From the NCBI GenBank assembly GCA_038503065.1, contig JBCAMK010000015.1, forward strand, positions 992,001 through 1,056,000: 64,000 bases of DNA, in the 5' to 3' direction. Shown here in pieces: positions 3,593 to 58,070 of the stretch (the first letter of the stretch is position 1; each line of letters opens with the position of its first letter). The notes under the pieces were generated by a model. That model was not told the origin of the DNA. It worked only from the letters and a program-made list of their open reading frames with translations, and ran no database searches. This stretch comes from Paragyromitra xinjiangensis. Lineage: Eukaryota > Ascomycota > Pezizomycetes > Pezizales > Discinaceae. Both the position numbers and the translations under genes were made by a program.

Positions 3593-4125
3593 AATTCAAG
3601 CTGGCCCCAGAGCTCCGAGATGGCTGTATGCGAATACAACAAGACGCACAGCATATACCGTGAAAGTACTTGACGCGGGCCGATGATGAGTGACGTTTCT
3701 TCGTTCGTTTGCCTACAAACCTCATTCATCAGTAAAAATTGATATAGCCGCCCCGGCCGCCTGGAGGTCGGGGCGGTCGGGCGGAATGTTACCCTTCTGT
3801 TAGGTTGCTGCAGCACCTCAGCGCGCCCGGGAGGCATGGTTTCTAGACCTTTGACCGCCTGGAGGAGGTCGTTTCCTCCTGTCGCAAGTGGTGTAGTGGG
3901 CTGCTTCTGGGCGTGGGTGGTCTCCCGCTGCTGCAGAATTTTGGCAGCAGTTCGCCCTGTAGAATGGATTTGCACAGTATGCTTGTGGGACCTGGAATAT
4001 TCGAGAATCACTTGTATAGAACCAATATCATTGACAATTGCTTTATTCTATGTATCTATCTATATATCTATCTATGTACAAATATCGAGGGCGCAGCTAA
4101 CTAAACTAGCTTCTGTGGAAGCTGC

Positions 4126-4352
4126 AGCAGCGAATTGACGACCTGCCAGAGGCAGGCAGCGAATTGACCATGTGGCGGAGGCTGCAGAAGCTCAGGCAGC
4201 GAATCGACCATATGGCGCAGGCGCAGGAAGCTCAGGCAGCGAATTGACCATATGGCGGAAGCGGAGGAAGCGGCGGAAGCTGCAGCAGCGAATAGACCAT
4301 ATGGCGGAGGCGGCGGAAGCTCAGGCAGCGAATCGACCTATTGGCGCAGGCG

Positions 4353-4387
<35 letters not shown>

Positions 4388-4870
4388 AGCGAATTGACCA
4401 TATGGCGCAGGCAGCGAATCGACCATATGGCGGAAGCGGAGGAAGTGGCGGAAGCTGCAGCAGCGAATAGACCATATGGCGGAGGCGGCGGAAGGCTCAG
4501 GCAGCGAATCGACCAATTGGCAGAGGCAGCGGAGGCGGCTGCAGCGAATCGATCAATTGGTGGAGGGCAGCGGGGCTCGGGCAGCGAATTGACCTATTGG
4601 CGCAGGCAGCGGAGGCGGCTGCAGCAAATCGACCATTTGGCGCAGGCAGCGGAAGCACAGGAAGGGACTCGACCATATGGCGGAGGCGGAGGAAGGCTCA
4701 GGCAGCAGATCGACGACCTCCAGGAGGCGGCGGAAGCTCAGGAAGCTCAGGCAGCGGAGGCTGCTGCAGCAGAATCGATCAATTGACTGAGGAAGCGGAA
4801 GCTCAGGCAGCGAATCGACCATGTGGCGGAGGCGGAGGAAGGCTGAAGCAGCGGATCAAAGCGAGTCTAG
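4126..4870 (+). repeat. Minisatellite of ~40-bp units whose reading frame cycles
   Basis: About 16 units begin GAATCGACCATATGGCG and continue with GGC/GGA/GCT-rich sequence. Most units are 25, 40, 49 or 61 nt long, all congruent to 1 modulo 3; at least one is 41. A frame therefore rotates through three peptide registers (RIDHMAEAAEAQAAN, RPYGGGGGSSGSE, LTIWRRRRKLRQ) without meeting a stop, giving a 204-codon ORF at 4172-4786. The same array fills 17.04-18.07 kb in element B. It may be coding or simply stop-poor repeat DNA. Confidence 0.75.
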
Positions 4871-5439
4871 GAGGCATATCAGCGGGAGTCAAATAAACGG
4901 AATCAGGACGTTACCTGTGAGGTTCTTTGCAAGCAGAGCTTAGTACTTCTAGCCTAAAAGTCACGATGTTAGCAAAGTACTATGGTACAGCGAGGTAGGG
5001 AATGGGTGGGAGGGAATAGGGGGGAGCAATAGTAGGGACGACGGGGAGGAATAGGGAGGTGGAGATTGCTGTCTTACTAGGCGTTGCTTTGGCGACGACT
5101 AAGCGACGACTTGGCGACGACTTGGCGACTACAAAATGATGACTAAACAACCATAGAGTGATGACTAAGCGACCTCCAGATTTTTGAAAATCGCTAAGTG
5201 CCAGTGCCTGGCAGGAGACGAAGTGAATTTTGCTAAGTCCCGAGTTTTCAGGGACTTAGCAAAATTCGATCAAAAATTTGCTAAGTACTCGGCTGCCGCC
5301 CAGCGCTGCCGGATGGTAGGAGGTCGCCCAGAGGCGCTGCAGCATCAGCAAAAAAAAAATGTCGCCCCGACACTTTCTTGTCTTCCAGAAGGCCATATTC
5401 CGCCAGATTAGTTTCGGGCCTTCCAAAGCGCTTGGAAGA

Positions 5440-6256
5440 CCGTTGCGAGCTGAAAGAACCTCCTGACGACCTCTCTCAGGTCGTCATCTTCCAGTGGCTG
5501 TATCCATGCCGTGCCTTCTGAACGGTCCCCTTGCCTTTTGACCTTCTTCAGGACACCACCACTGCTGCAGCCTGCCGCCAGGTGGCATTGTTCCTTGGTG
5601 CTGGAGACACTTTCCGACCCGAATTACTATTCATTGACGACCTCTAGTAGGTCGTCGCCACGTTCTATGTACAGGTCCACCTTCCGACTCCACGTGAATT
5701 GGATCGACTTTTGTTGTGTGAGCCCTTCATTTTGACCCGCCAGCGACTACCCTCTTGAATCGACTCTCGTTGTGTAAGCCCTTTATGTCGACCTCTAGTA
5801 GGTCGTCGCCACGTTCTATATACAGGTCCACCTTCCGACTCCACGTGAATTGGATCGACTTTTGTTGTGTGAACCCTTCATTTTGACCCGCCAGCGACTC
5901 CACGTGAATTGGATCGACTTTTGCTGTGTGAGCCCTTCATTTTGACCCGCCAGCGACTCCACGTGAATTGGATCGACTTTTGCTGTGTGAGCCCTTCATT
6001 TTGACCCGCCAGCGACTACCCTCTTGAATCGACTCTCGTTGTGTAAGCCCTTCATGTCGACCTCTAGTAGGTCGTCGCCACGTTCTATATACAGGTCCAC
6101 CTTCCGACTCCACGTGAATTGTATCGACTTTTGTTGTGTGAGCCCTTCATTTTGACCCGCCAGCGACTACCCCTTTGAATCGACTTTCGTTGTGTAAGCA
6201 TTCATGTCGACCTCTGGTAGGTCGGTAATGGATTCTTGCTGTAAGTTCCAGCCTCT
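5440..6256. repeat. Complex tandem repeat at the left end of element C
   Basis: Between about 5590 and 6220 a ~59-nt unit (CCACGTGAATTGGATCGACT...TTTTGACCCGCCAGC) and a longer block containing CTCTTGAATCGACT...GTGTAAGCCC and TCGACCTCTAGTAGGTCGTC alternate several times. Palindrome copies lie at 5465-5485, 5636-5656, 5786-5804, 6057-6075 and 6206-6223. There is no gene. Subterminal repeats are usual transposase-binding regions in EnSpm-like elements, so that role is possible. Confidence 0.7.
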
Positions 6257-9200
6257 CTAGTATATGTCATTGAATGTCTCAAGATCCACCCTGCTATTTA
6301 CATACCAATAGCCCTCTTCTAGATCCTGCACTAGATGCGCCATCCCTGTAATCGAAGCTACACTCACAACCCACTCGTCATTACCAGGAATCCGCACATT
6401 ACGAAGGCCAACTCTAATTAAGCTGCTGTTGGCCTCCAAGAGGCCGGCACCATCCAATCGAAGCATTTTGACGAGCGCAAGCCGATGGGTACGTCCCGAG
6501 CTCGGATCGCGGAGCTTAAACAAGCATCTCAATCGGCCAGGTAAGCGCCCACGCAAGGCACCATATTCGGTCTCGTTTCCTACCATAACCCAAACCCAGT
6601 CATTCCTTGCAGCCCCTCCTCGAAATGGCATATTGATCGTGCATCGAAGGCGGTGTATGGTATAGATATCGGTCTCTTGGAATTTGAGCATGGGGACCTG
6701 AAGGTGTGTAAAACGCTCCGCTGGGCACAGCCTTAGTTTGACGTTGTCGGTTGGCAACCTCTGGGAGTCCGGCAAAGTACTGTTATATGACTCTACCTTC
6801 TGCACTAATAGACCCTTGGTATCACCAATATCCAGCATCACATCTTCGAGGGATTGAGTCAAACGGGCGCTTATACGCCCTCGGAGGTAAGATGGGGGCT
6901 TTCTTTCCGCTCTGATATCTGGCTCGCACCAAGCTGGAACCCTTTCCTTCTCTAGGAGATCTCTTACATCTTTTGGGAGTGACCCCGCCGGCCTCTCACG
7001 AGTCGCCTCCCGAATGGATATGATACGCATGGCCATCAAGTGTCGACGAGAATAGTGCTCTAAGATCTGCTTGGTTGCATTGATCTTATTCGAGGCGCGA
7101 TAACCGACTTTGATCTGTTCTTGATGTGAGGCTTCGCCGGCCTCTGTGGTGGAGGCAACAATATTACCAAACTGCCTGACATGTGCGCTGAAGTGGCTCA
7201 ATAGATGCATCTTGATGAAGTTGAAGTGAGATTCTTGGCGGTAGATATCCTGGCGCTGCTCTGACCTCTCCAATCTATCTTCTACCACCACCTTTCGCCT
7301 CTTCGCCGTACACGAGAGGCCGTCAACAGTTCCTCCTGAGCTTGCCGCATGGCTTTGTTGGCTCTCTTTGCTTTCGCATTCGTCGCGCTTTGATTTGGGG
7401 AATTCGAGGAAGATATCCTTATGCTCGTGGAAGTCCTTCAAATAGCCTTCCATATAGTCAATAGTCTGTTCGGTGTGGCTGCGATATTGAGCCATTAGGT
7501 GGAAATCGATCAAGGCTTGGATACAGTCCAGAGCTCTCTTGAATGCCGGCCTTTCAGAGGTCGTCGGCTTCCGCAGAGCAACTGTCACTTCTACTAGGAG
7601 GAATCGACCAAGGTTCGGCATCTCTTTGCCCTGCCCCTGAGTCACCTCTCGATAGGCCCTTTTGGGAACTGTGATGCCCGTATAGGGAGGAATGGACTTC
7701 CATACTTTGTCGAATTGGTCGAGTCGGTTGTATTTGCCAAGGAAGCCTTGGATCCATTCCATCATATGCTTCAAAAGACCTAAATAGACTGTATGTAAAA
7801 GGTCAGGCTTATAGAGCTTCTGGCCGGACTCTGGGAAGCCGCCAAAAGCTGTTCATGAGTGCTTTTATACCCCTCTGCTGCAGCCAGTCTAGATCCCCGA
7901 TCGAGCCTGTCTCTTGGTAGCGTTTTACTCGAGCCTTATAGCAATCGTGATTGCGTACTGGAAAGGGCTTCGTACAAAGCTGACCTAGACTAGAGGCGTC
8001 AATTTCGCAGACGGGGCAAGCATTATTCTTTAGGTGTTGGAGGGTGACGTGCTCTAAATGGTCTGCCAACCAGCCGCAGACTACTGGAAAGCAGAATCGC
8101 AGCTGACCATCAGCACATGGAAGCTGAACACCGCTTGTTGCCGGCTCGTGGAGGGTTGACATAGTCCTTTCCATGGCAAGATCTAGGACCGCGCGATTTC
8201 TTGACCTTTGTGCTTCAGCAGCCTTGACCTTCAACTTGCCGACCTTTGGCGGGACGGGAAGCAGTGCCAACAGTAACGATGCCATTGCGGAAGGTTTGTT
8301 TCGAAGTGTGGATTTGATATTGCCTATCGTCAAATAGATGGGCCAAGCCTTTTTATCGCCTGAGAAGTTGGTAAGATGTGTTTGATCCGACGAGCAAAGA
8401 ATTGGAATCAATGTGGAGCCAGCGGGGAGGGTTTCCTACAACTGATTAGCAAACTCTGACGGCTCCTGTGAGGTCGGGAGCTAACCTGGAGATCCCACCA
8501 CCAATCAGCTGTATGCATTTCTGAATACATTCTTTCACCGGCAGGGTTGAATTCCTTCACCGGAGCGTAGACCATTTCCCCTGAATATGCTGTTTGGGCT
8601 AGCAAATATCGTATACAAACCATAGGATCGCGATGACAGAATACAAAAGGCTCCCCATCAATCTCCTCCTCGATGAAGGTCCAGCTTGGCTCTCCTAAGG
8701 TCGTCGGCAGGTTCTCAATCACCTTGTAGAGGGTGTAGGCGGACCGATAGGAGCCGGCACCAAGGTAAAGACCTTTCTTGAAGTATTATCGATGCCAGTC
8801 TTCATCGTTTTGGTATCAATAAAGCATTTGGCTAAATGGAAGTCATAAGCAGTGTGGAAGGGGAATAAAGGGAATTGGAGCAAGCTTTCCTGAGCTTCTA
8901 GGAAGCTTGGCACGCTTCCTGCCGGTCTCCCTGCATCCGGTAAGAAGCTTTGACTGATGCTTTGGGGACTTCGGCTGCACCATTATCGTTGTCTTCAGCA
9001 TCAGAGGCTGTAGCTGGTTCTTCATCTGAATTATTGTCCGAATCGTAAATTGATGATCTATCACTCCTTCTATCGAGGTAGTCCTCTGCCGGCTCTTCTT
9101 GGTCCGTCAGTGGATCGTCAAGATAAACTTCTGCTTGCTCAGGGTGCTTGGTCAAGATATGGGTTATCAAAGCTGAGCTGTAGTCGTAGGAATATCGACA

Positions 9201-9404
9201 GAAGGGGCAGCGGTCTGGCATGTTTGGAGGTTTGGTAGTAAAAGGGGTAGCGAGGTGTTGTGGAATAATAGGGGACTGATGGTCCGGCATTGACGACCTC
9301 TGAAGAGCCGGAGAAGAGCTCATAGCACTCCCAGCCGTGTCTTCGGGGGTTGAGATCAGGGGTTGAGCTGACGTCGGGGGTTGATATGGCGCCTGATTCA
9401 GCAT
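6257..9404 (-). pseudogene. Plavaka-type transposase, frameshifted copy
   Basis: The minus-strand reading recovers the Plavaka layout. There is an N-terminal C2H2 finger (CPFCRYSYDYSSALITHILTKH, C-x2-C-x12-H-x4-H), then AGRPAGSVPSFLEAQES, then FVFCHRDPMVCIRYLL and YAPVKEF...YSEMHTADWWWD. After a 50-nt intron (8436-8485) come DQTHLTNFSGDKKAWPIYLT and IGNIKSTLRNKPSA, then LYKPDLLHTVYLGLLKHMME and the long C-terminal part with HLLSHFSAHVRQFGNI. The frame shifts at about 8940-8990 (before LPDAGRPAG), at about 8790 (GIDN|YFKKGL, apparently one base missing) and at about 7845 (NSFWR|FPESGQKLYKPDLLH). No GT...AG intron explains these, so I call it inactive, although base-calling errors could mimic this. 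The start at 9404 is the first ATG upstream of the finger. Plavaka transposases cut and paste EnSpm/CACTA-like elements. Confidence 0.75.
8436..8485 (-). other. 50-nt intron of the transposase gene containing the element palindrome
   Basis: The intron is donor CAG|GTTAGC at 8485, branch TTTGCTAATC, acceptor TTGTAG at 8436. It joins WWWDLQ to ETLPAGSTLIPI in frame, as expected from the Plavaka family (WWWD...TLVPIICSSDKTHLT). The palindrome at 8458-8477 (GACGGCTC...GAGGTCGG on the plus strand) fills the middle of the intron. Confidence 0.7.
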
Positions 9405-10114
9405 AAGAGCCGCAACGCAACAGCTCGGACCTTTGCAGCCGACGCAGTCTGTCTTTGAAGCTTGACGACCAGCTCAATTGCAGCTCAACAGCAGCAGGAT
9501 CCTCAAAAAAAAAGTTGCTCTAAATCCTGAGATTTTCTGGCGTGTGGATCCTCCACCGGCCTACAGGAGGTCGGCAGGTTCCTTTCACAACTTTTGCGCA
9601 TATTGAAATAGCGCTAGTGCTGTATAACCCTAACCCTGAGTCCTTTAAGAGTTTCGGATTTGCTAACTCTTACGTCAACCCTCCACCCCCTCACCTTCCA
9701 ACCTCCAACCTCCACCTCCTCGCACTATTCACACCACCACCTCCTCCCTCGCAGCCTCCTTCAACGCAGCGTTTCAAGCTGCAGCTGCTATTCAGCTCAA
9801 CGTTTCAAGTTGCTGCTCTCGCAATCTTGCCTTCCAGCTTGAATAGCCAGCAAAGGCTATAAAATGGCAGATATGGCGCCTCCAACCGAGTCAGAACCAA
9901 GCAGAGCAAACAAAACCCCCCCGCCCAATCTAAACAATCAAACAACCCCACCAAACAGTGTACCGACCTCTCGCAAGCCGTCGCAAACAGATCCATCCTT
10001 ACGACGAATATCCCTGCCTTAACCCCCCCGCGACAAAAAACTCCAGTATATCGATCACCCCGGCAATCATCAACCCAACCGACCTCCCCCAAGCCGGCAA
10101 GCACCCCTACCAAG
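9405..10114. promoter_or_regulatory. Divergent intergenic region between transposase and cargo gene
   Basis: This 710-bp region separates the start of the transposase gene (minus) from the start of the cargo gene (plus), so it probably holds both promoters. It contains a telomere-like TAACCCTAACCCT (9625-9637), a pyrimidine-rich run (about 9675-9775) and palindromes at 9556-9574, 9963-9982 and 10079-10097. No supported ORF. Confidence 0.5.
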
Positions 10115-11394
10115 ATGCCGCCCCGCGCCAGAGCGACTGAAATGACTGCAGCAGATCTCAAAATAGTGTTGGGCTTCAGCGCAACCAACAATCAAGCCTA
10201 TTTGATCGTTCGTGATGATATTGTTTCCTACGCTATTCAGCACGGTATCACAGGCGTCGACACCCCTGGAAAGGCTGCCTGGACTGCTTGTGAGGAGCAC
10301 GCAGTCAGCCACAAATACCTGAGCCGCTTCAAGGAAGCCTACGAAGGAGCAGGGCCAAAGGAGAATACCCCAGACGTTCGAAGGCTATCAAATGCCTTTG
10401 CCTTGACGCTATCGAAGAAGAACCCTGCCAGAGCAGCAGCGGATAAGCAGATGGCAGATAATGGTGACTTTGACGGGCCTGCTGCCGGCCTCACTAGAGC
10501 TGTCGCCGCCGCTGGTGCTGCTGGCGCTGCTGCACCTTCACCTTCCCGCATCATTCAGGTCCGCATCGTCGATCCTGACATAATTGGTGCCTACGACAGC
10601 GATGCACCTCTACCACGCCAGACAAGCGGATATGGCTGGGACCCAGCTAATACCATCTTCCAGAAGCTGACGACCTTAGAGCCGGTCACGCACCGTGATA
10701 TCTTGACATACGCAGCAAAGCATGTCGCTGAGAATCGTCGCGCTCGCGCAGTTTGGGGAGCTCTTGTCCCCATACCTGAAGACTTTCGGATATCTACTAA
10801 CGATGAGATGATTCTCAGCGAGGATGACGAGGTGACGGCCTGGCTGAGGTCGACAACGGCTAACCCCCCGGTTGTGAACGTTATTCTTCATCGGGTTACT
10901 GCCAAAGGAATGCGATCGCGCCAAACCCCGCCGCCCTGCGGCGGCGGGCACATATCTCTAAGGGCTATTTCCCCTCTCTTCTCGAGGACCCTGCCGAGGA
11001 TTCTGACGAGGACGACCGCCCGCTTCGGAAGAAGTTTAAGCCGCTGCCGCGTACAGATAGGGGCTTCCAAGCTCGCGAAAGGAAGATTCGGGCACGAATC
11101 TTGCGCCAGCAAGAGCTCCTGGAGTCAGTCAAAGAGCATCACAAGGAGATAACGCCAGACGCCATATTTTCTGACGAGGAAGGGTTTGAGAACAGGTATA
11201 TGTCGGCCGCTCAGAGGCGGGCAGCTAGGGAAGCGGTTAAGGCAGCAGCTGAAGCGGAGGAGGACGAGGAGTTGGAGGAGGAGGAGGAGAAGCAGGAGGA
11301 GGAGAAGGGGGAGGAGGAGGAGGATAAAGAGGAGGAGAACGACGGAGGGGATGGGAAGGGTGGGGCTGACGAGGATGTTGGAGCTACCGCTTAG
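10115..11394 (+). CDS. Element C cargo gene 1: unknown protein with acidic tail
   Basis: I model two exons, 10115-10831 and 10963-11394, joined in phase 0 by a 131-nt intron (donor GAG|GTGACG, acceptor CTCTAAG|GGC). The result is 382 aa with an N-terminus MPPRARATEMTAADLKIVLG. Around the junction it reads EMILSEDDE|GYFPSLLEDPAEDSDEDD, which is compositionally smooth. Reading through instead gives a low-quality Arg/Pro/Ser-rich frame. Residues 240-345 are charged with a basic RTDRGFQARERKIRARILRQQ segment, and the last ~50 residues are Glu-rich because of a GAG microsatellite. I do not recognise a domain. Position inside the transposon next to the transposase suggests an accessory factor. An alternative is two frames broken at the GC-rich hairpin near 10928-10947. 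Confidence 0.55.
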
Positions 11395-12413
11395 CTTCTG
11401 CGGCCATTTCGTCCTCGATTTCCTATTTTCTTCAGTTTTGTAGTTGTGGCAACCCCCCCTCGGCCTCCTAGAGGCCGGCAAATTTCTTTATCCGTTTCTT
11501 TATCCGTTTCTTTTTGTTTTCTTTTGGTTGATATATGATGGATACGCATGATTATTTTTTGGTAGGTCAAACCTTCTCCTATCCGGTTACCTAAATACTG
11601 ACTGGCTTGTCAAGGTTTATGTATAGCGCTTACCGACCTCCCAGAGGTTGGCGGTCTTGGGTTTCCTATTCTTATTATTATACCGGATTCTTTATATGTT
11701 TTATATCCTTTTCTTTATATGTCGTTTTAGAGGGTAGAGGGTAGAGGGGCAGCAAGGCATGGATGAGTGCTGGTACGTTCCTTCCTGCCAATCGTTTGAG
11801 ATCTAAAGTGACTCTTAGGTAGCACCCAACGACCTTCAGGAGGCCGGCAGGATCTTTGTATTATCTTATTATCTGTATTATCTGTATTATTCCTATTATT
11901 CCTACTATTCCTACTATTTGTATTATTCCTATTATTTGTATTATTCGTATTATTATGGCGGTAGCGATTAGATGTTAGATATCTTGGCGTTTCTATTATT
12001 GGCCTTGGGGCAGCAAGACATTGGCTGTTGCAGGTACCCTACTACCCTATCAATCTTTTATAGCTAAACGCTAACGTCTATGAGACAGTATTTGCCGACC
12101 TTCAGTGGGCTGGTAGAAGGTCTTACTATCTTTATGGCGTCATTTGACCGGATTCGCTTAATTACTAATCATTTTTATGTATCTACAAATATATCTACTA
12201 GCCGCTGCTGCTAGGTGTGGCAGCAGAGCTGAGGATCCGGTCATTTCCAGTCATAGCGTGCTTAGTGGTAACCAATGTTTTGCGAGTCCGTGCAAAGCCC
12301 CTTTACTTATTCCCCAAGCAGACGCCGACCTCTCTCAGGCCGGTCAATACCTTGCCTCTCATCCAAAAAGCTGTCGACCCCCTACCGAACAAACTCCTTT
12401 ACCACTACAGAAA
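11395..12413. other. Intergenic DNA of element C with palindromes and ATT microsatellite
   Basis: No supported gene. It contains palindrome copies at 11461-11478, 11633-11654, 11830-11848, 12094-12112 and 12324-12344, spaced about 180-260 bp. It also has an A/T-rich TATTATTCC/TATTATTTG microsatellite at about 11855-11955. Confidence 0.6.
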
Positions 12414-13779
12414 AATGATCAGAAATTCAGGTAAGAAAGCTAGCACTTCAAAACGCAGTTCGATGCAGGTAACAAAGCCTTTCCTACCACCCCCTCCACC
12501 AGGAATCTGCCGTCTCGTGAGAGGTCGGTGGAAGAATATAGGGACGCAAAGCTATGAAGACGCAGCAGAAGACGAAGACGAAGATGAAGACGAAGATGAC
12601 GAAGACGAAGATGACGAAGATGAAGAGGAAGAGAAAGAAGGAGAAGGGGAGAAGACAATAACGATGAGAATATAGGGCTTTTTCGTAGAACCTACGAGAG
12701 TGACGATTCAGATTATGAATCACCTCCGACCTTGGAGAGGCCGGCAGGCCCTTCCAAAAAGCCTACTGCGAGGCATCGAGAGATGATACAGGCAAACCTC
12801 ATTCGCAAAAAACTGGCAAGTACAATTAATTCTCACTGGCAAGTCATTTTTAATAGCCTACTAATGAGTGTGATAGGGCATGAATTTGGAGCCGGTACCG
12901 AGCAGCACCATGCCGACTCCTCTGCAGCTGGCACATGGTAGCCTGAGTAGTATGATCAACACGACTCATAGTCGCAATCGAGACCGAAGCGTGTTCTGCG
13001 CAGAAGACTCCCTGCAGCCTGTTGCTCGGCTTGCAAAGCTGTATATTGCTTCTTTCACCTACTTCAGGCATCCCTTTCCTGACGGAATCGAGATGGCCAA
13101 ATGGACGAAAAGAGCCTGGGCAACTGCTGAGAAGGATATGGGCGTAGTATGCCCTATCAGCAAATTGTGCTTCAACTTGGTATGTTGCCGGCCTCTGTGA
13201 AGCCGATTGAGTATTCTAACAGCTCTAAGCTAAAAGCAAAGCAATCGAGCACACGGTCCCAATTTCTCGCTCACATCAAAAAGAACGTGTTGACTGCCTA
13301 CAATCTTACGGATCTGAAGGAGGAAGAGCGCCAGAAGAAGATCGAATATCTGCTGGATGACGACAGGTTCACCTGTCACCCTGATGCATATGAGGTCAGT
13401 ACAAACTCCTACTAGTATATGACGACCGCTGACGAGCCGGCAGAGTCTAGAGGGTAGATTCCTTGCTCCACAAATTCCCTTCCTGATATTTAGTAAGTTT
13501 TATGAAGGTAAGAAGGCTCTCGGAAGGTCGGATAGAACCTTCATCGGGAGTATCAATACCGTATTCATTGCAACGACTGCAGCAATGATATATCACTGTC
13601 TTTCTGCTTGGAAAACAGGCGCCTATGAAGACCCCAAGGACTTCAACACCACAAACGCTCTCTGTAAGTTATGGACGACCTCTGGGAGGCCGGTATTCTC
13701 TCGACAAGATGATAGATCCTTGGCACCGTCAGTGAACACAATACAGATCATAGATGTCGAGATTCGGAAATGTTACTAA
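12414..13779 (+). CDS. Element C cargo gene 2: DUF6532-like protein (5' part uncertain)
   Basis: Exons I trust are: up to 12815, 12877-13179, 13230-13394, 13453-13663 and 13709-13779. Introns are 61, 50, 58 and 45 nt. The first is GC-AG (CTG|GCAAGT, branch CTACTAATG). The spliced product contains a helical stretch (LQPVARLAKLYIASFTYFRH), then FLAHIKKN, LLDDDRFTCHPDAYE, KFYEGKKALGRSDRTFIGSI and AAMIYHCLSAWKTGAY. I associate this order with DUF6532, a fungal domain of unknown function frequent in mushrooms. The 5' exon has an Asp/Glu microsatellite (12558-12640), after which the frame must change to reach the in-frame DNNDENIGLFRRTYESD segment. The start (ATG at 12414) and the integrity of that exon are therefore doubtful and the gene may be disabled. 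The last intron is stop-free and a multiple of three, so retention is possible. Confidence 0.5.
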
Positions 13780-14596
13780 ATGATATCTGCCGCCAGATCA
13801 ATGATCTTGTAGGGTATCTTCCCCTTACAACGTGATACTAGCTAATGATATTAGCGAGCGAAAGACGCGTTGGCAGATATCGAGTCGCAGGATGCCTTAG
13901 GGAGATCAAGGACGACTAAAAGCAATACTAGAGCTGCGGAAGAGAAGCTCGTCGACAACCCTCCAGCAGCCGTATGCTCGGCGGGCTCGGCAGTCAAGCT
14001 CCGGCCCAAACCCTAGTGACCCGATTGAAGAAGTGGCTGCCATCCTGGCGGCAATCCCTGCCTCGGAGGGAAATGGCACCTAGGAGCTTGCTGACGACCT
14101 CGCACGAGCCGACAAGAAGAACTGGAAAGGCGTTGGGGGTCGAGTAAGAGGAAGGATAGGGAAGGGAAGAGAGAGGTGAGGTGAGCGGAAGGAGGAGAGG
14201 CAGCCAAGGATATATGTAATAGTAGAGTAATAGACTAGAGCGTTTCAAGGAATATATAGCCATTTTACCACACGCCCGAATATAAGCCTCCTAAAGATAA
14301 AGGCTGCGATCATGAGCATCCGTGATCTTCAGAACGTCAGATCCAGAAAGAATGCGTCCGGACTGTAGGAGGTCGTCAAGGTCTCCGAGAAGAACGATGT
14401 CGAAGCAGAGCCATCCAGAGGCTGGGCTACCACAATAGTTGCGAAAGGGGTCATCAGGACTGACGACCTCCCAAAGGTCGCCTCCGGGCGCAGAGAGCAG
14501 AGTTTACAACCTGAGGGAGGGCTATATTCCGCCCCGACCACCCGAAGCGTCTGATGCATTGGGCGCACCGGGCGACATTTCAATTTTTTGCTGATG
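13780..14596. other. Right terminal region of element C
   Basis: No complete gene. Short coding-looking fragments follow the DUF6532-like gene but carry stops. Palindromes lie at 14093-14113 and 14462-14480. The last ~60 bp hold GCGCACCGGGCGACATTTCA and the inverted end TTTTTTGCTGATG. Confidence 0.5.
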
Positions 14597-14708
14597 AGGC
14601 AGCAAGCGGTGCCAGGGGGAAGCGCAGCAGGCACCTAGTGTCACCCAGGTGCGCCAGGCGGTCGGGCGGAATATGTACCTATTGGGCGGAATTTTTTTTT
14701 TACTGATG

Positions 14709-15398
14709 TTCCTACCGTCTCAGTGGCTCGGGCGTGGGAGTCGAGATAGGCACGTATGCATGAGGGCCCGGGGTCGCATATGCGATATGGGGATTGCTGC
14801 GTGGAGGTGGTTGGGATAAAACCTGACGTTCAGAATTGCCAAATGCGGACAGGGGCTTTCACGTGACTCATCCTGCCGCTGGATTTCAGCGCTTTGTGCT
14901 CACGTTCTAAACCATCGGAAATGAGCATCCACTAAAGGAAGAGATGGATCAGCCTTGTGCAGAATAATAGGAGCTACCTAACGGCCCGAGCCGCCTCCAA
15001 TTCCAGTTAGTAAACCATTGAATACTGGATATCGGGCATCCCGAATCTCACAGAGCATTATTTACCAAATGGATGTCTTAGAGCTCTAAGCATTTCCCGC
15101 TCTCCGCCCCGATAGCACTGGCACGGAACCTAGGCTTCAATGCTTCTACTACAAAGTCATGAATCATAACACTCCCTATCACATGGAAGTCCTGAAGGAG
15201 ATCTCGATGTTGATGGGGAAGAAGGAGGGTTTTTGGGTCCGGATATTAGTCTTGATGACTTGCTGTAGTAGATTTATCATAGTAGAACAAAGAGAATAGA
15301 CGAAACAAAGAATACTCCGCGCCTATAAGTACATGTAGTGCCTTGTTTCTCCGACGAGGCTTCCCCAAGTATCCAAACATTTAGATCTTGCTACCGCC
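14709..15398. other. Non-coding gap between transposon A and the tandem gene pair
   Basis: I see no gene or element palindrome here. TATAAGTACATG at about 15324-15335, about 65 bp before the first ATG, could be a promoter element. A similar CTATATGTATCATG sits at the matching place upstream of the second paralogue. Confidence 0.4.
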
Positions 15399-15860
15399 AT
15401 GGCTATCCCTGCGCATACTATTATTATAGCACCTAATCCTGACTGGTCGCCAACGCCGCCGCCGGGAGCACCGCCTTTAGGCCCTCTCCGCTCAATGCTG
15501 AACAAAATGTTGATGGCCCGGGTCATTGATCACAATCGTGAGGCGCGCAGAACAAACCGTGCGCTCTACCTTTCAGGGCACGCATATCTATTCATACCGA
15601 TAATGTCAGATAATGGTGCCTCATTTGGCGCTGGCTTCCCCGTGAATGCGGACGTCATCTACCGCTGGCCTCGTAAGTAATGACCTTAGCGCGCAGAATC
15701 TTTAGCAGCTTGACTAAGTGTATCTATAGCCGCAAGGCATTTGGCGTTCGAGAATTACTATGACTTGACTAATGTCACTTGGCTTGAATATGGGGCAGCG
15801 TTTACCCTAGCTGACCAGCAAAGGAAGATATTGGTATATATTGGTGCGCTGGAGGCGTAA
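15399..15860 (+). CDS. Small orphan protein, tandem copy 1
   Basis: Exons are 15399-15672 and 15730-15860, separated by a 57-nt intron (GTAAGTAATG...TCTATAG) that keeps the frame; 134 aa. The sequence starts MAIPAHTIIIAPNPDWSPTP, then has a conserved HNREARRTNRALYLSG core, LFIPI, and ends RKILVYIGALEA. The neighbour at 16079-18588 has the same exon-intron organisation, an exon 2 of identical length (131 nt) and the same core, so the two are a tandem duplication. No known domain recognised. Conservation of the frame between diverged copies supports it as a real gene. Confidence 0.7.
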
Positions 15861-16078
15861 ATAAAACGCTATTTGGATATTGATCTTGTGAAAGAAATGA
15901 TATATGTGTATATCCGCCAGACAAAGAAACTCAAATAGGATATATATCATAGTCAAACAAAGAAAACATACGAGATGGAGTATTCTCCGCCTCCCACGCC
16001 GTCTATATGTATCATGCTCTGGTCTACAAAGTGTTCTTCTCGACTCGTCGACCCTACAGTTAGTCAGTACAGTAGAAT

Positions 16079-18588
16079 ATGGCTGCGCCCGCTGTCCCTC
16101 ATCCCATAATCTTTGCCGCCGATCCCACATATACTCCACCGGGACCAGCGCCGCCTCCTGGGGTCCTAACTATAGCTCAACTCATAGCAAATGACCTTGT
16201 ACTCTCCCTTGTGAGGGAACATAACCGCGAGGCGCGCAGAACAAATCGTGCGCTCCACCTTTCCGGGGGCAGACATATCTTCATACCCATCAGGACTAGG
16301 GATGGATCTTCTATAGGCGCAACTTTCCCGAGTACTGCGGATGATGTTCAAGATATGGCCCGTAAGCTCACACTGTCTGCGCACCAACTTTCTTGCTCCC
16401 TACCTAACCATGCTTATTCACATCAGTAAAAAAAAAATTGCGCCCAATAGGTACATATTCCGCCCGACCGCCTGCCGCGCCCGGGCGAAACTAGCTGCAG
16501 GCTGTGCTTCCCCCTGGCGCCGCTTGGTACCTGTAGCGCTTCCCGGGCGACCTCCCACCATCCGACAGCGCTGGGCGGCAGCTTGAGCACTTAGCGAATT
16601 TTCGATCGAATTTTTTTTCTAAGTCCCTCAAAGCCGGGGACTTAGCAAAATTCACTTCACTCGCCTCCCAGGCACTTAGCGATTTTGAAAAATCTGGAGG
16701 TCGCTTAGTCATCACTCTGTGGTCGCTTAGTCGTCGCCAAGTCGTCGCCAAGTCGTCGCCAAAGCAACGCCTAGTAAGACAGCAATCTCCACCTCCCCCT
16801 ATTCCTTCCTGTCTCTCCTCCCATACCTCCCCCTATTCCCTCCCTTCCCCACCTCGCTGTACCATAGTACTTTGCTGACATCGTGACTTTTAGGCCCGAA
16901 GTACTAAGCTCTGCTTGCAAAGAACCTCCTCGGTAACGTCTTGATTCCGTTTATTTGACTCCCGCTGATATGTCTCCTAGACTTGCTTTGATCCGCTGCT
17001 TCAGCTTCCTCTGCCTCTGCTGGCTGCCTGCTTCGCTGCTTCCGCCTAAGCGAGCTCAGGAGGCGGCTCAATTGGCTGATCGATCCGCTGCCTGAGCTTC
17101 CGCCGCCTCCTGGAGGTCGTCGATCTGCTGCCTAAGCTTCCTCCGCCTCTGCCATATGGTCGATTCGCTTCCTGAGCTTCCGCTGCCTCAGTCAATTGAT
17201 CGATTCGCTGCCTGCCTGGGCTTCCTGAGCTTCCGCCGCCTCCTGGAGGTCGTCGATCCGCTGCCCGAGCTTCCTCCGCCTCCGCCAAATGGTCAATTCG
17301 CTGCCTGAGCTTCCGCCGCCTCCGCCACATGGTCGATCCGCCGCCTGAGCTTCCGCCGCTTCCTCCGCTTCCGCCATATGGTCAATTCGCTGCCTGAGCC
17401 TGAGCCTGAGCCTGAGCCTGCGCCAATAGGTCGATTCGCTGCCTGAGCTTCCGCTGCCTGCGCCACATGGTCAATTCGCTGCCTGAGCTTCCGCTGCCTC
17501 CGCCATATGGTCTATTCGCTGCTGCTGCTTCCGCTGCCTCCGCCATATGGTCTATTCGCTGCTGCTGCTTCCGCCATATGGTCAATTCGCTGCCTGAGCT
17601 TCCTGCGCCTGCGCCTGCGCCAATAGGTCGATTCGCTGCCTGCGCTGCCTGCGCCTGCGCCATATGGTCAATTCGCTGCCTGAGCCTGCGCCAATAGGTC
17701 GATTCGCTGACTGAGCTTCCGCCGCCTCCGCCACATGGTCTATTCGCTGCTGCAGCTGCTGCAGCTTCCGCCATATGGTCAATTCGCTGCCTAAGCCTGA
17801 GCCTGAGCCTGCGCCAATAGGTCGATTCGCTGCCTGAGCTTCCGCCGCCTCCGCCACGTGGTCTATTCGCTGCTGCAGCTTCCTCCGCTTCCGCCATATG
17901 GTCAATTCGCTGCCTGAGCTTCCTGCGCCTGCGCCAATAGGTTGATTCACTGCCTGAGCTTCCGCTGCCTGCGCCATATGCTCGATTCGCTGCCTGAGCT
18001 TCTGCTGCCTGCGCCATATGGTCAATTCGCTGCCTGCCTCTGGCAGGTCGTCGACTCGCTGCTGCAGCTTCCACAGAAGCTAGTTTAGCTGCGCCCTCGA
18101 TATTTGTACATAGATATATAAATAGATACATAGAATAAAGCAATTGTCAATGATATTGGTTCCATACAAGTGATTCTCAAATATTCTAGGCCCTACAAGC
18201 ATACTGTGCAGATCCATTTTACAGGGCGAACTGCTGCCAAATTCTGCGGCAGCGAGGGACCACCCACGCCCAGAAGCAGCCCACACACTACTTGCTACAG
18301 GAGGAAACGACCTCCTCCGGGCGGTCAAAGGTCTAGAAACCATGCCTCCCGGGCGCGCTGAGGTGCTGCAGCAACCTAACAGAAGGGTAACATTCCGCCC
18401 GACCGCCCCGACCTCCAGGCGGCCGGGGCGGCTTTATCAATTTTTACTGATGCATAGCGGCTGCTGTTGGGGCATTCTCTTTATTCTACAACCTAGGCGG
18501 AGTGACTTGGCTTGATTACCGTCATGCCACTACAGCGCCGCGGCGCCGCAGGAAGATATTGGCCTTCATCGGTGCGCTCGAAGCGTAG
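16079..18588 (+). CDS. Small orphan protein, tandem copy 2, with transposon B in its intron
   Basis: Exon 1 is 16079-16361 and exon 2 is 18458-18588; together they encode 137 aa, paralogous to the gene at 15399 (shared HNREARRTNRAL, IFIPI, VTWLDY, RKILAFIGALEA). The donor GTAAGC at 16362 is intact. The 2.03-kb element B was inserted after ...TTATTCA, only a few bases before the acceptor CATAG at 18453-18457. The duplicated CA restores the acceptor context. Without B the intron would be about 62 nt, like copy 1. Whether the 2.1-kb intron is still spliced is unknown, but both exons remain open and undamaged, suggesting a recent insertion or continued splicing. Confidence 0.65.
16421..18452 (-). 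mobile_element. Transposon B (2032 bp, relative of A)
   Basis: The ends are CATCAGTAAAAAAAAAATTG at 16421 and ...AATTTTTACTGATG at 18452, with CA duplicated on both sides (16419-16420, 18453-18454). Reverse-complemented, it matches element A through its left block (GGTTGCTGCAGCACCTCAGC and following), the 40-bp minisatellite and the right end, with scattered single-base differences. There is no sign of heavy C-to-T (RIP-like) decay. It has no transposase and is non-autonomous. Confidence 0.85.
17040..18070 (-). repeat. Frame-cycling minisatellite in transposon B
   Basis: This is the larger copy of the array in A, here on the minus strand, with about 25 units starting GAATCGACCATATGGCG or GAATCGACCTATTGGCG. 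Long frames run through it without stops, including 253 codons at 17382-18143 on the minus strand. The rotating peptide pattern is the same: RIDHMAEAAEAQAAN, then RPYGGGGGSSGSE, then LTIWRRRRKLRQ. Unit length differences are mostly multiples of three. Confidence 0.75.
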
Positions 18589-18682: not shown

Positions 18683-19855
18683 CTACTCCTCGTTCCCTGT
18701 TTTGAACTTAATATTCGCCTTAGCTCTTGCCGGTCCCCGGCGTACATTAGGAGTTGCCGGGGGAATTTGCGCTATAGGTGCCGCAGGCTCGTTTCCCTTT
18801 GGTGTTGATGGAGGCGTGGATTTCTGTGCGGGGGCTGGTCTTCTTGGAGTAGACTTAGATTTCTGTGCGGAGGCTAGTCTTCTTGGAGTAGACGTAGATT
18901 TCTGTGCGGAGGCTGGTCTTGGAGTGGTGTTAGGTTTCTGTACTAAGGATGGGCGTTTTGGAGTGGATGTGGATCCTTGAGCAGAAGCCGGTCTTTTTGG
19001 AGTGGATGTAGATTTCTGTGCGGAGGCTGGTCTTGGAGTGGTTGTAGATTCCCTGGTTGCGGGAGGGAATGCCTCCGCTGTTTGTGTCTCGAGTGATCGC
19101 GCATGACTTCCCACACTGGCAACGGCTCGGCCAAGCGGACGCCGGTATATCACTGTGGGCGAAGCCATCAGGAGCACACGATGTATATATCCAAGGACGT
19201 TTGGGGTAAGAGCGGCCGAGAGGCTGACCGCTGGGACTGAGCGGAGGTGCGCGCGCAAATCACCAAGATTCGCATATTCGTGACGGAATTGGCGATATCC
19301 CCAAACGACGTGGGCCTCGTCAACAGCTATGGCTAGAAGGTTATCTATGAATCTAGACTTGTTGTGTAGTATGTTGGTCCAAAAGTATGAGTCGGAAGAC
19401 AGGAGTGCCTCCGGAGCGGCATAGACAACTCTGTGCTTACCATTTTGAACCTCCCCCCAGAGCTTAGGATGTGCGAGGATATCCTCGGCCGTTAGCGAAA
19501 CTGCCGCTATCTTCATAGACTGAAGCCATGATACTTGGTCATGCATGATACTCAGTAGCGGGGATACCACCAAGATTATTCCGTGGCGCTTCATGTACGG
19601 TAAGCACTGGAAGATGATGCTTTTGCCTGAGCCAGTGCCTGCGCTGACCACTACGTCTCTCTTCATACACACATCAGCAATTGCCTCAGCCTGCCATTGG
19701 TGTAAGGATATCCCAAAGCGTTTAACCGCAACCGCTCGTGCCTGTTTAGTAAAGTGTTCCCGCTGGATGGTGTTTTCAACCTCGGAACTAGAAGTCCAGG
19801 TAGGTGCAGCTGCCACCCGAACCATGGCCTGCCGAGGATTAATCCTATATCTCAA
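18683..19855 (-). CDS. RecQ-like helicase fragment fused to a Ser/Thr/Pro repeat tail
   Basis: The open frame is 390 aa. Residues 45-230 match the first RecA-like lobe of a RecQ-type DNA helicase: LHQWQAEAI (motif 0), AGTGSGKS at 72-79 (Walker A), VVSPLLSIMHDQ (motif Ia), YAAPEALL, DEAH at 179-182, and SLSAALTPNVL where SAT is normal (motif III is SAA). The second lobe is absent. From about residue 235 the protein becomes a low-complexity tail of repeated PASAQKSTSTPKR-like units. A complete helicase would need lobe 2, RQC and HRDC parts, so this is a truncated or repurposed derivative, possibly a transposon-borne helicase relic. Upstream of the ATG the frame continues to LQDLARRFCWLRYRINP behind a plausible acceptor (TTTTTAG), so a 5' exon may be missing. 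Confidence 0.6.
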   Translation of the reverse strand: MRYRINPRQAMVRVAAAPTWTSSSEVENTIQREHFTKQARAVAVKRFGISLHQWQAEAIADVCMKRDVVVSAGTGSGKSIIFQCLPYMKRHGIILVVSPLLSIMHDQVSWLQSMKIAAVSLTAEDILAHPKLWGEVQNGKHRVVYAAPEALLSSDSYFWTNILHNKSRFIDNLLAIAVDEAHVVWGYRQFRHEYANLGDLRAHLRSVPAVSLSAALTPNVLGYIHRVLLMASPTVIYRRPLGRAVASVGSHARSLETQTAEAFPPATRESTTTPRPASAQKSTSTPKRPASAQGSTSTPKRPSLVQKPNTTPRPASAQKSTSTPRRLASAQKSKSTPRRPAPAQKSTPPSTPKGNEPAAPIAQIPPATPNVRRGPARAKANIKFKTGNEE

Positions 19856-19863
19856 CCAGCAGA

Positions 19864-20360
19864 ATCTGCGCGCAAGGTCTTGCAGCTGCTAAAAAGGTCA
19901 ATCAGCAGTCAAATAATCTAATTATTATAGACCGCGGATGGTCGGGGGCGTGGAAACTCACGTATGGCGTTGCGGGGGGGGGGGGGTCGTCGGTGGAGGA
20001 GGCGGTGGAGGCTAAGAGAATAAAACAGCCAGTGCACACGCAAATAGCTGCGCGCAAGGTCTTGCAGCTGCTAGAAAGGTCAATCAGCAGTCAAATAATC
20101 TAATTCTTATAGACCGCGGATGTGCAGGAGCGTGGAAATTTATGTAGGGCTTGCTGAGAGTAGCTGCTGGTGGAGGCAGAGGAGGGGGTCAAGAGAATAA
20201 AACAGCCAGCGCACACGCAAATAGCTGCGCGCAAGGTATTACAGCCCTCAAAAAGGTCAATCACCAGTCAGATAATGGAACCCTTATAGACCGCAGATGT
20301 TCAGGGGCGTGGAAACTCAGGTAGCGCTTTGCGGGGGGTGGTTGATTGGTGTTGAGAGTG
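19864..20360. repeat. Three ~180-bp tandem repeats carrying a splice-acceptor-like segment
   Basis: Units beginning TGCGCGCAAGGT start at about 19866, 20047 and 20226 and share GGTCAATCA, TATAGACCGC, GCGTGGAAA and AATAAAACAGCCA. In minus-strand sense each unit repeats the block ...TTTTTAGCAGCTGCAAGACC, which looks like the 3' splice site and exon start of the adjacent helicase-like gene. A 13-G run sits in the first unit at about 19974-19986. Confidence 0.7.
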
Positions 20361-28599: not shown

Positions 28600-29520
28600 T
28601 GGGATTTGGGGATCAGAACCCGGCAGTTTGGAATTCGGAAGTGGGATTAGAAATGTAAATGGGCGATAGGTTCCCCAATTTATATAAGCAATAGATATTG
28701 GCTGAAGCTAGAGGGAGGTTGAATTATATAGTGGGAGTTAGCAATTGAGAATTGGAGACTAGCGATTGGGGATTCGAAAGTGGATATAGTATGCAAATAA
28801 GTGTGGAAGGGGTTTGGAGATGCTAGCTAGGAGCTGGGAGTCAGCAGAGTCATAGAATATATAAGAGTAAGCAAATCGTACTAAGAGCTGGAAATTGGGA
28901 ATTGCTAGTTTGAAGTTCGAAGGTCGAGATATATAGCAGGTGGGAGTTGGCAGTTAGGAATTTGGAATTTGGAATTTGGAATTGGAGGTTGGCAATTGGG
29001 AAGTTGAAAGTTGATATGGTATGTAAGGTACGAAAGGGGTTCGGAGATGCTAGGAGCTGGGAGTTAGCAGAGCCATGCAGTGTATCAGAGTAAGCAAACC
29101 ATACTAAGAGCTGGAAATTGGGAGTTGGCAATCGGGAATCCGAGAGTAGATATAGTAACGTGAACAGGGCGAGATTTCCCAGTTTGTGTCGGCAACGAGT
29201 TTGAGCTATTCGGCTGAAGCTGGAGGCTGAAGGTAGGTTTATACAGCAGGGGAGTATTGGCAATTGGGAGTTAGCAATTGGGAATTCGCAATTGGGAGCT
29301 GGCAATTGGGAATTCGCAATTGGGAGTTATTAATTGGGAATTCGCAATTGGGAGTTATCAATTGGGAATTCGCAATTGGGAGCTGGCAATTGGGAATTCG
29401 CAATTGGGAGTTAACAAGTTAGCAATTGGGAATTCGCAATTGGGAGCTGGCAATTGGAAATTAGTAGTTGGGAATTCACAATTGGGGATTGGAGGTCGAG
29501 AAACGTAATTATAGTAGATC
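28600..29520. repeat. Minisatellite of 14-15 bp AATTGGGA(A/G)TTSGC units
   Basis: Loose copies begin around 28735. A dense array of AATTGGGAATTCGC and AATTGGGAGCTGGC spans about 29258-29490. All small ORFs here are repeat translations. It lies upstream of the integrase gene. Confidence 0.75.
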
Positions 29521-54828: not shown

Positions 54829-54930
54829 GCCTCGCTAGCTCAATCGGTAGAGCGTGAGACTCTTATGATAACTCACTGGCTGAGTCATATAGACATCTCA
54901 AGGTTGCGGGTTCGACCCCCGCGTGGGGCT
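54829..54930 (+). tRNA. tRNA-Lys (CTT anticodon) with intron
   Basis: The acceptor stem GCCTCGC pairs with GTGGGGC (54923-54929, one or two G-T pairs). D arm AGCTCAATCGGTAGAGC, anticodon stem TGAGA/TCTCA with loop CTCTTA(A) giving anticodon CTT at 54862-54864, and T arm GCGGG-TTCGACC-CCCGC. About 29 nt (54866-54894) interrupt the anticodon loop one base 3' of the anticodon, the canonical tRNA intron site. It decodes AAG. Isolated, with no cluster. Confidence 0.93.
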
Positions 54931-55591: not shown

Positions 55592-58070
55592 TCAAGTTTG
55601 TTTCCTCCGTTTTTGCCTGTTTACTTTTGGTTCAGCAACATTCTCCTCTTCTTCCTCGGTATCAGTATCCTGATCCGCGACGAGAGTGACATTGTCATCA
55701 CCGTCATCCTCTTCATCCTCTTCATCCTCTTCATCCTCCCACTCTCCTTCACCCTGCTCATCAATGATATTATCATCACCACTCGCGATGCCTCCCCATT
55801 CCTCTTCATCTTCCTCGTCAACATCACTATTCGCCTTTGTGCTGGCTGGCTGTGAACCTTCCATTTCCTCGGCGGATCGCTTCTTCCTCATCTCGCCCAA
55901 TCTTCCCTCTCTGCCCTTGAGCGCGATGACATTCTTCGCCTCTTCTTCCTCCGTCATTTTAGGGCAAGGTGTGAACCAGGGTATCTTTCCCCTCATGAAA
56001 TCGTTCAGTACCATCTTCGCGACACCATCCATGTCCGCCTCACCACCCTTCAAGAGCCTACCGCCCTTCCTGGCAAGCATCTCGCAGAACTCGGTCGCGT
56101 TGGTCCAGCCTTTGATCTCGTATGTTCTCTCGATGTGCTGTTGCTTGCACTTCGCCAGAACAGCAGGGATGTACTGTTCAGGGTTTGAAACGTTTTCAAC
56201 ACGAACGACACCTCTAAGGAGGATGTCGGTTTCTGTGTCTTGAGCGTTGGGGGGAACGATACCGGGGCAGTCAATCAAGAAGATGCGCCGCATCAGGGTG
56301 ATATACTGCCAAATCTTTGTTTCACCAGGGATAGGTGCAACGGTACAAACTTTCTTCTTACGCAGAGTATTGATGATGGAAGATTTCCCAGTATTGGGAT
56401 ACCCAATCAGACCGACAGAGATCTGCTTACGATCTGAGTGTAAGGCGGAGAATTGGCGTAGGAGCTGGATCAATGATCCCTTTCCGAATGAGTTATTAAT
56501 GGATGCATGGAATGCAAGAGTGGGGTAGTCTTTTGACAAGCGACGGACCCATGAAGCCTGTTCAGACGAACTATGATTAGTAAAGAATTCTTTGGTAAAA
56601 TATCTAAGAAAATTCTGGATAAAGCGATCGAGATGTGTGAATCGCAACTAAGAGAACCAACACAATGTTTTTCAATGAAGAAAAAAGTCGGAGCTCAACT
56701 CAAAGCGAAACACATCCCAATCCCTAAGTGAATCAACCCAAAACGGGAGAATCGGTGTCAATCCCAATCACAGAACGTGAAAAGGACGACGAGTCGGGAA
56801 AGGGGTTTGCTCTCCCACAGTTGTAACAGACACCTTCGACTGAAGAAAATTGGCCGGAATCCCGAAGGAGACCGACCACGATGGTGCCTTGACTTGAACG
56901 ATGGGACCGGTAGTAAACCGGAAGAAGGGCTGGTAGAGGGAAGCGAAGCAAAGAAATAACAAACATACTGCAACGCTTGTGGGAACCAAGTCACACTTGT
57001 TTAAAACAAAGATAAGATGTTTATGAGGCGCCTCTTCTTTAATGTACTTTTCTACACTGCGGCATCGAGTACCTAGTGGATCTCGAGCATCTAGGACGTG
57101 TATTACGACGTCTGAAGAATCGATAACCTTTTTATATGTTAGGATCAGAGATTTTTCTAGCGGAAATATTAGGGCAATTGATACCTTATACAGCTCGTTC
57201 CAAATCCTCTTGCTTGTGCCCTTGGTAAATATAGGCTCTTTCGCTTCCTGGATCCATCCATTCCCTGCTTCCTCTGTAGTCTGTTCGCTGCTTTTCCCTG
57301 ACAACAACAGTTTCATCTCCAAGGTCTCCTCATACTTCTTGTCTTTTTCTTCACACTCGCCCACAAGGTCTTCAAGAGTGGAAACAGCCAGCTTTGGGCG
57401 TTTACGTTGGGCTTTGGGGCCAAACGTTTGTGCAAAAGGCTCTGTCTCCACATGGATCTTTGCAGCATGTTGTTTTGAAGTGGGGTCTGTGAGGAGGGAC
57501 ATGGGCAATTTATTTTGTTTCAAGAGCACTTGGTAAGGGTCATTTGCCTTTTGAGCCATTGCCTCACGGAAAGAAGTAAGTGCACCCTGAGAGATTACTC
57601 TGGTGTTTCCTGAAGGCAGAAAAAAGTCAATAAATTTCTTAATCCGCAAAAAAAAAGTCTTCAAGGAAAGTGCAAACTCTTTGATAGATTCATCAAATTT
57701 GCACTCATTGTGAGACCATCGAAGAAATATGAGAGCGCAGAAGAGGAACATACCAAACCACTTCCGATTCGGCTCAATTCTCGCATTTGGAATTTCTCTC
57801 GATTGGAAAGACGCAGCCTTGAGAATATCTCCATTCTTATTTCGGATGGGTTTCCCCTCCTTATACATGTTCAATTGCCCAACTTTCTTAGCATCGCGAT
57901 AGAAATTCTCGCCCTTGACTTTGACATTTGCCATGCCATCGCCGGCGGTGTCCTTGCGGCCACTGTGGGACAAGTAGTCAGTATTCTGAACTGCTGCATA
58001 AGAAGCCGAATGAAACGAGGAGAGGATGGAAGGTTTACCGACGGTTGGCCTCCTTCTTGAAGTTACCCAT
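55592..58070 (-). CDS. NOG2: Nucleolar GTP-binding protein 2 (NOG2)
   Basis: Five exons (minus): 58070-58039, 57962-57754, 57609-57185, 57127-56969 and 56557-55592; all phases agree, 596 aa. It starts [11 protein letters not shown] and has the family hallmarks [32 protein letters not shown] and [21 protein letters not shown] circularly permuted GTPase follows: NKCD (G4), then GYPNTGKSS (G1/P-loop), then DCPG (G3). Then [20 protein letters not shown], and an acidic/basic C-terminus. NOG2 is a placeholder GTPase on pre-60S particles, sensing rRNA and blocking premature Nmd3 binding in the nucleus. The acidic Asp/Glu repeats near the C-terminus come from a GAA/GAT microsatellite. Intron 3 (57 nt) is stop-free and in frame but is removed in the family sequence; intron 4 is unusually long (411 nt). 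Confidence 0.95.

Follow-up and report, generated by a model that had tools for sequence, protein, structure and literature searches.

The 64-kb stretch of the Paragyromitra xinjiangensis genome analyzed here (the window; the genome comprises 48.2 Mb in 22 contigs) contains a dispersed palindrome, CGRCY-N7-RGYCG, within three transposable elements designated A, B, and C. The palindrome is real and occurs far above chance. Its sites are confined to these elements within the window, keep a constant spacing and have constrained arms, and related subfamilies of the elements carry different motifs. We consider it moderately probable that the palindrome is a dyad site bound by a homodimer of a protein that the element encodes, with open reading frame 2 (ORF2) of C as the first candidate, and that it likely serves anti-silencing or transcription control.

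Distribution of the palindrome

Sites matching the core CGRCY-N7-RGYCG were counted against a background of first-order Markov resampling, with 20 resamplings per sequence. Element C contains 22 exact cores (0.10 expected), and A and B contain one each (0.20 and 0.00 expected, respectively). The remaining 51 kb of the window contains no exact core (0.60 expected). Cores with one mismatch number 16 in C and eight in the remaining 51 kb, where all are located past 18.5 kb. Exact and one-mismatch sites together reach a density of ~4.1/kb in C, 2.9/kb in A, and 3.0/kb in B, compared with 0.16/kb elsewhere. When spacers of 0 to 14 bp were scanned in C, the inverted pair was found 22 times with N7 and once each with N3 and N4. 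C has 115 CGRCY half-sites versus 66 in shuffles; 44 of them lie in palindromes and 71 are single, so the single half-sites are near chance.

The exact cores run from 5467 to 14464, spanning the whole of C. The one at 5467–5483 is followed by four in tandem-duplicated units (5638–5654, 5789–5805, 6058–6074, and 6208–6224), three in the transposase ORF (6989–7005, 7547–7563, and 8460–8476), and one in the transposase N-terminal ORF (9294–9310). The spacer between the divergent genes holds one core (9557–9573), the upstream part of the ORF2 frame two (9964–9980 and 10080–10096), ORF2 itself one (10836–10852), and the ORF2–ORF3 spacer two (11461–11477 and 11830–11846). Five cores are found in the ORF3 region (12326–12342, 12727–12743, 13189–13205, 13423–13439, and 13676–13692) and two in the right arm (14095–14111 and 14464–14480). 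The single exact cores of A and B are located at 3754–3770 and 18409–18425.

An initial annotation of the window had named 16 positions in C, and a site is present within 2 bp of each (14 exact; 6430 and 11634 with one mismatch). The three sites it had placed in A were also recovered: 3754 is an exact core 9 bp off, and 4139 and 4714 each carry one mismatch. The four in B are likewise present, at most 8 bp off (18409 exact; 17103, 17236, and 18034 with one mismatch). Its statements that copies fall in coding sequence and spacers alike, and that the motif is restricted to A, B, and C within the window, agree with the sites seen in coding ORFs and in spacers and with the lack of exact cores in the other 51 kb.

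All three elements have CATCAGYAAAAA ends. Element C (5343–14596) is a Plavaka-type element with CATCAGCAAAAA termini, the target site duplication (TSD) AG, and a PF18759 transposase. It is nested in A, a non-autonomous element with the TSD TT, and splits it into a left part (3727–5342) with a CATCAGTAAAAA terminus and a right part (14597–14708) with an inverted CATCAGTAAAAA terminus. Element B (16421–18452) is a non-autonomous relative of A with CATCAGTAAAAA termini and the TSD CA; A without C aligns to it over the full length in inverted orientation. The end of a related locus, L051, is 96.6% identical to the first 88 bp of A.

PlavakaB elements of the CMCT clade are described in PMC12730594 as having CATCA..TGATG termini, a 2-bp TSD, and a Plavaka transposase domain. 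The elements of the window resemble them in all three features, and the termini and TSDs of A, B, and C agree with PlavakaB. CATCA..TGATG termini occur in A, B, and C and also in the related loci L051, L053, and L054, and PF18759 was matched in C, L053, and L054. The TSDs of A, C, and B fall within the 2 or 3 bp expected of PlavakaB. The right end of L052 and the ends of L035j (L035 with neighboring DNA) showed no match to the full terminus pattern.

Genome-wide, CGRCCT-N5-AGGYCG has 176 sites versus seven for the reversed pattern. Among the 50 of these 176 that were listed, 47 are at most 11 kb from the start of a transposase match. The transposase matches number 92, which count segments and not elements; the area within ~10 kb of the 92 segments makes up 3.05% of the genome. 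The other three listed sites are at least 126 kb away, close to the number predicted from the reversed control. The initial annotation had found the motif only inside elements A, B, and C. Confinement to the elements is supported genome-wide by the listed sites, but the motif is limited to the C-like and L051-like subfamilies and is not shared by all CATCAGYAAAAA elements; L053 and L054 have the same CATCAGYAAAAA termini and no CGRCY motif.

Tandem repeats accompany the palindromes in several places. The left arm of C contains tandem units with one palindrome apiece (5638–6208), and a 59-bp tandem repeat at 5836–6017. Minisatellites of ~40 bp fill A and B (4153–4746 and 17080–18036), and a dyad scan of B returned its minisatellite. 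The units often hold YGACC beside CCATATGG, so that a half-site-like GACC is repeated. These minisatellites may be binding-site arrays that have degenerated.

Arm constraint and motif change among related elements

Divergence was compared between the palindrome arms and their surroundings in three clades of related loci. Pairwise comparisons covered eight, six, and four loci of the C, L053, and 66% clades; pairs with identity above 97% were excluded, as were sites where gap columns exceeded 20, and the pairs are non-independent. The arms diverge by 0.039, 0.083, and 0.091, respectively, the flanks by 0.107, 0.193, and 0.193, and the spacers by 0.101, 0.205, and 0.160. A column test, in which each alignment column of six, six, and four loci was counted once, was also applied. 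In the C clade, 15 of 113 arm columns are variable compared with 1002 of 4139 elsewhere (p=0.007) and 96 of 273 in single half-sites outside palindromes (p=8e-6). In the 66% clade, the corresponding values are 12/50, 1936/4297 (p=0.003), and 91/211 (p=0.015).

Silent sites were represented by third codon positions of the longest ORF. Variable arm columns at these positions number 0/12 in the C clade (p=0.077), 0/8 in the L053 clade (p=0.029), and 1/8 in the 66% clade (p=0.15). With the three clades pooled, the arms have 1/28 variable positions versus 672/1894 (p=0.00017). Constraint on the arms is thus supported by the column test in two of the three clades and by the pooled silent positions.

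C and L051 are 58% identical over aligned columns. Visual reading of the alignment placed a palindrome-like sequence of L051 opposite 8 of 20 C sites; several others differ by substitution and not by a gap. Identity between the two is 132/198 in the arms, 595/1174 in the flanks, and 78/138 in single half-sites. Between C and its near relative L052, with sites chosen in L052, it is 183/190 in the arms, 980/1113 in the flanks, and also high (87/93) in single half-sites. With sites chosen in C, the arms have 184/216 and the flanks 1051/1296, values explained by five C sites close to the right end that L052 does not match well.

Relatives of C carry other motifs with the same spacing. A blind dyad scan of all 5-mers, with spacers of 0 to 14 bp and one mismatch allowed, ranked CGACC-N7 first in C, L051, and L052, whereas AGGAT-N7 ranked first in L053. 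Such scans respond to tandem arrays, and control stretches gave CAATTG-N8 and CTTGA-N1 (z 12.1). The evidence for AGGAT-N7-ATCCT is strong. L053 has 144 half-sites versus 70 in shuffles, 30 of them in palindromes, and the excess lies partly in tandem arrays. AGGATR-N5-YATCCT has 215 sites genome-wide versus 13 for the reversed pattern, and for 38 of the 50 listed the nearest transposase match is no more than 11 kb away; the 12 listed sites beyond this distance include four at 12.8 to 15.0 kb and four at 18 to 27 kb. The evidence for a third motif, ARRGC-N7-GCYYT, is weaker. AAGGC-N7 in L035 alone is at the shuffle maximum (z 5.6), and, among the patterns covered, an R/Y-degenerate scan of L035j found 10 ARRGC-N7 sites versus 0.71 expected.

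The three motifs are almost mutually exclusive by subfamily. L006–L022 have 2–12 CGRCY sites and no ARGAT or ARRGC, L024–L029 and L032–L034 have 5–9 ARGAT sites and no CGRCY, and L035j has its 10 ARRGC sites and no other motif. The exceptions are L029, with one ARRGC site, and L023, a damaged copy grouping with the 66% clade, with no CGRCY, one ARGAT, and one ARRGC. This division follows the transposase tree, in which the AGGAT loci cluster together with support of 1.000. Joined by L035, L054, and L056, they are separated from the CGRCY loci with support of 1.000; the placement of L035 inside has support of 0.500.

Two of these loci have features of their own. L056 contains a fragment of ~400 bp (929–1312) that is 92.5% identical to the left end of L053, carries two AGGAT palindromes and a CATCAGCAAAAA terminus, and stands apart from the rest of an L053-like element. 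Because the pair lies in an L053-end fragment, it was not counted for the adjoining transposase clade; the same palindromes were counted as near-transposase among the 50 sites listed for distance. L054 has none of the three motifs (CGRCY, ARGAT, and ARRGC). Its best dyad in the one-mismatch scan (z 6.8; shuffle maximum 6.1) is not spaced by N7, and it was set aside; an R/Y scan and a search for dispersed k-mers gave nothing clear. A tandem array of 52-bp units occupies 615–1010 of L054, at the left end of an element without N7 palindromes, and might be a motif array of another, subterminal kind.

A candidate binder and competing explanations

Element C encodes a transposase on the reverse strand and ORF2 and ORF3 on the forward strand. 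The transposase consists of an N-terminal ORF segment (8898–9473, −), two segments matching PF18759 (8408–8785, −, E 2.4e-19; 7809–8435, −, E 5.7e-43), and a C-terminal part (6257–7852, −) that matches the PF18759 tail weakly and yields the 92 genome match segments. The N-terminal segment has one C2H2 finger-like stretch (zf-C2H2, E 0.002, below the cut-off). ORF2, a single ORF in L051, is divided between two frames in C. The first (9863–11152, +), the candidate binder, has no Pfam match of its own and is 50% identical to L051 ORF2 over 290 residues; the second (10864–11394, +) is 68% identical over 87 residues. L051 ORF2 matches PF24465 (Tri-helical) below the cut-off. ORF3 is represented by putative DUF6532-type segments (12624–14080, +) with a weak PF20149 match (E 0.013, below the cut-off). 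These are 40–57% identical to segments of L051, one of which matches PF20149 with an E of 1.1e-11.

Segments related to the transposase, ORF2, and DUF6532 are found in each of C, L051, L053, and L054, and a transposase and an ORF2 relative in L035j. The transposase of C is 66% identical to that of L051 over 523 residues and 47% to that of L053 over 546 residues; ORF2 of C is 40% identical to that of L053 over 73 residues. Of 60 genome matches to ORF2 relatives, 55 have a transposase match no more than 11 kb away. PF24465 has 11 genome matches, six of them above the cut-off and ten at this same distance or less from a transposase match; it has no match in 14 control genomes. A sequence search of L051 ORF2 against PDB found no match, and single-sequence structure predictions for the two ORF2 pieces were too poor for use, with a mean predicted local distance difference test (pLDDT) score of 33 and 44.

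Two inverted 5-bp half-sites with a 7-bp gap, 12 bp apart from center to center, would suit a homodimer. In the simplest account, such a protein would be encoded by the transposon, perhaps by ORF2, and would bind the elements of its own family along their full length, over genes and spacers. The half-site changes between subfamilies at constant spacing, which suggests that the geometry of the dimer was retained in the protein family while the bases it recognizes shifted; the sites would have followed the protein. Some of the sites originated through tandem duplication, and the rest appeared at unrelated positions. Given the coverage of the whole element body, the predicted binding fits a role in chromatin or transcription better than one in end pairing. 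It would probably shield the whole element from silencing, or control its transcription.

Several observations weigh against this reading. A and B, presumably mobilised, hold only one exact core each. In the L053 clade, variable columns are not significantly fewer in the arms (32/103) than elsewhere (1314/3885, p=0.6) or in single half-sites (96/333, p=0.71). L035j has a degenerate half-site, which also forms direct repeats (N4 15, N7 12) as often as the inverted N7 pair (10). Exact genome patterns for the third motif are not convincing (37 vs 44 and 11 vs 5), and eight of the 11 sites are one identical 19-mer. Divergence does not identify the binder, since the rates of the DUF6532 protein and ORF2 are similar. 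L054 has an ORF2 relative with a PF24465 match over the cut-off and no N7 motif; an ORF2 relative alone therefore does not imply the motif.

The arms are inverted repeats and could form an RNA hairpin or DNA cruciform selected for arm pairing, a reading that is very improbable. The initial annotation had held that the arms keep complementarity while changing base, and the two arms in fact vary independently. At the R/Y position of CGRCY they are symmetric in 27 of 56 unique sites, with 28.7 expected for independent arms, and in 10 of 27 of the listed set (13.6 expected). A further variable position of the palindromes gave 29 symmetric sites versus 31.9 expected. The variable positions of AGGAT gave 18 versus 19.0 and 11 versus 11.1, and the 10 ARRGC sites 7 versus 5.5 and 5 versus 5.1; a smaller listed AGGAT set leans weakly to symmetry (17/26 versus 13.0). 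Twelve of the C sites fall in gene regions, and in gene sense their pairs are eight A.C mismatches, two G.U, and two G.C. Compensatory change for a hairpin, one of the forms of selection proposed in that annotation, is thus rejected; the other, protein binding, is favored by the strict N7 in C, the arm constraint, and the half-sites of the relatives. It is scarcely credible, too, that the palindromes are small mobile or duplicated units piling up without function. Four of the 22 C sites (5638, 5789, 6058, and 6208) share flanks as tandem duplicates, tandem duplication also accounts for five of the 15 sites in L053 (8935–9179), and two more L053 sites share flanks. However, the other C sites have unrelated flanks (9964 and 10080 share just their overlap), the arms are constrained, and the L051 counterparts and substitutions described above also disfavor such units.

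Proteins other than ORF2 could bind the sites. The transposase might do so through its N-terminal finger, for excision or assembly of a transposition complex; the C2H2-like stretch recurs in L053, and a site is present in the terminal sequence common to A, B, and L051. We regard this as unlikely, since end pairing would not need sites throughout the element, including coding sequence, with no concentration at the ends; the finger matches are also below the cut-off. Binding by the DUF6532 protein of ORF3, or by dimeric host factors exploited for transcription, is similarly improbable. DUF6532-type segments accompany the transposase in C, L051, L053, and L054, and a host factor would also explain the arm constraint. 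Several host proteins with equal spacing and different half-sites would be required, however, one per subfamily, and few of the listed sites fall outside the elements.

Related systems and neighboring features

VANDAL elements belong to a transposon superfamily unrelated to Plavaka. In the VANDAL/VANC anti-silencing system of Arabidopsis, many family-specific short motifs are recognized by a protein that the element encodes (PMC5735166, PMC10398659). As here, the repeated motif differs in related families and is partly tandem (PMC5735166, PMC10398659). The VANC21 motif consists of nine bases in non-coding regions (PMC5735166), whereas the sites described here are 17-bp dyads of fixed spacing that also occur in coding sequence, with the exact cores at 6989, 7547, 8460, 9294, and 10836 inside ORFs. 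CACTA elements (Spm/En, Tgmt*), whose transposase superfamily is related to Plavaka (PMC12730594), carry subterminal motifs that are bound by a second element protein, TNPA, and diverge between families (PMC2613891). Divergence of repeated motifs between families is common to both, and binding by a second protein, a feature of CACTA (PMC2613891), is a candidate feature here. The CACTA repeats are subterminal (PMC2613891), whereas the C sites spread from one end of the element to the other and the half-site changes at constant dyad spacing. VANC and TNPA are the systems that work most like the proposed one, combining family-specific repeated motifs with an element-encoded binder, which is putative here.

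The PlavakaB description, in its accessible part, makes no mention of dispersed palindromes or of a motif-binding accessory protein (PMC12730594). No report of such palindromes in Plavaka was found in that source or in the titles and abstract openings searched, with the subscription literature mostly outside the search. It is possible, if doubtful, that PlavakaB evolved a self-recognition system independently, in which the half-site of the dimer changed at least twice with N7 fixed and many sites re-evolved each time over the full length of the element, also in coding sequence, so that the family's own copies avoid silencing; the number of changes rests on three motifs in one genome. The elements offer a natural series of protein-and-site variants of constant geometry within one genome, which allows a direct test of how a DNA-binding specificity co-evolves with its dozens of target sites. 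The system would be a fungal counterpart of plant VANC if it acts in anti-silencing.

The window has further features outside the elements. ARAGORN in its bacterial setting listed no tRNA in the window. Rfam gave a tRNA match of 102 bp at 54829–54930 (+), whose length suggests that it probably contains an intron, and a match to the snoRNA snR191 at 56631–56906 (−). A 14-bp unit resembling CAATTGGGAATTCG forms a tandem array at 29261–29440. A long ORF adjoining B (18683–19888, −), a putative RecQ-type helicase judging by its motifs, has a minisatellite of 39-bp units at its end.

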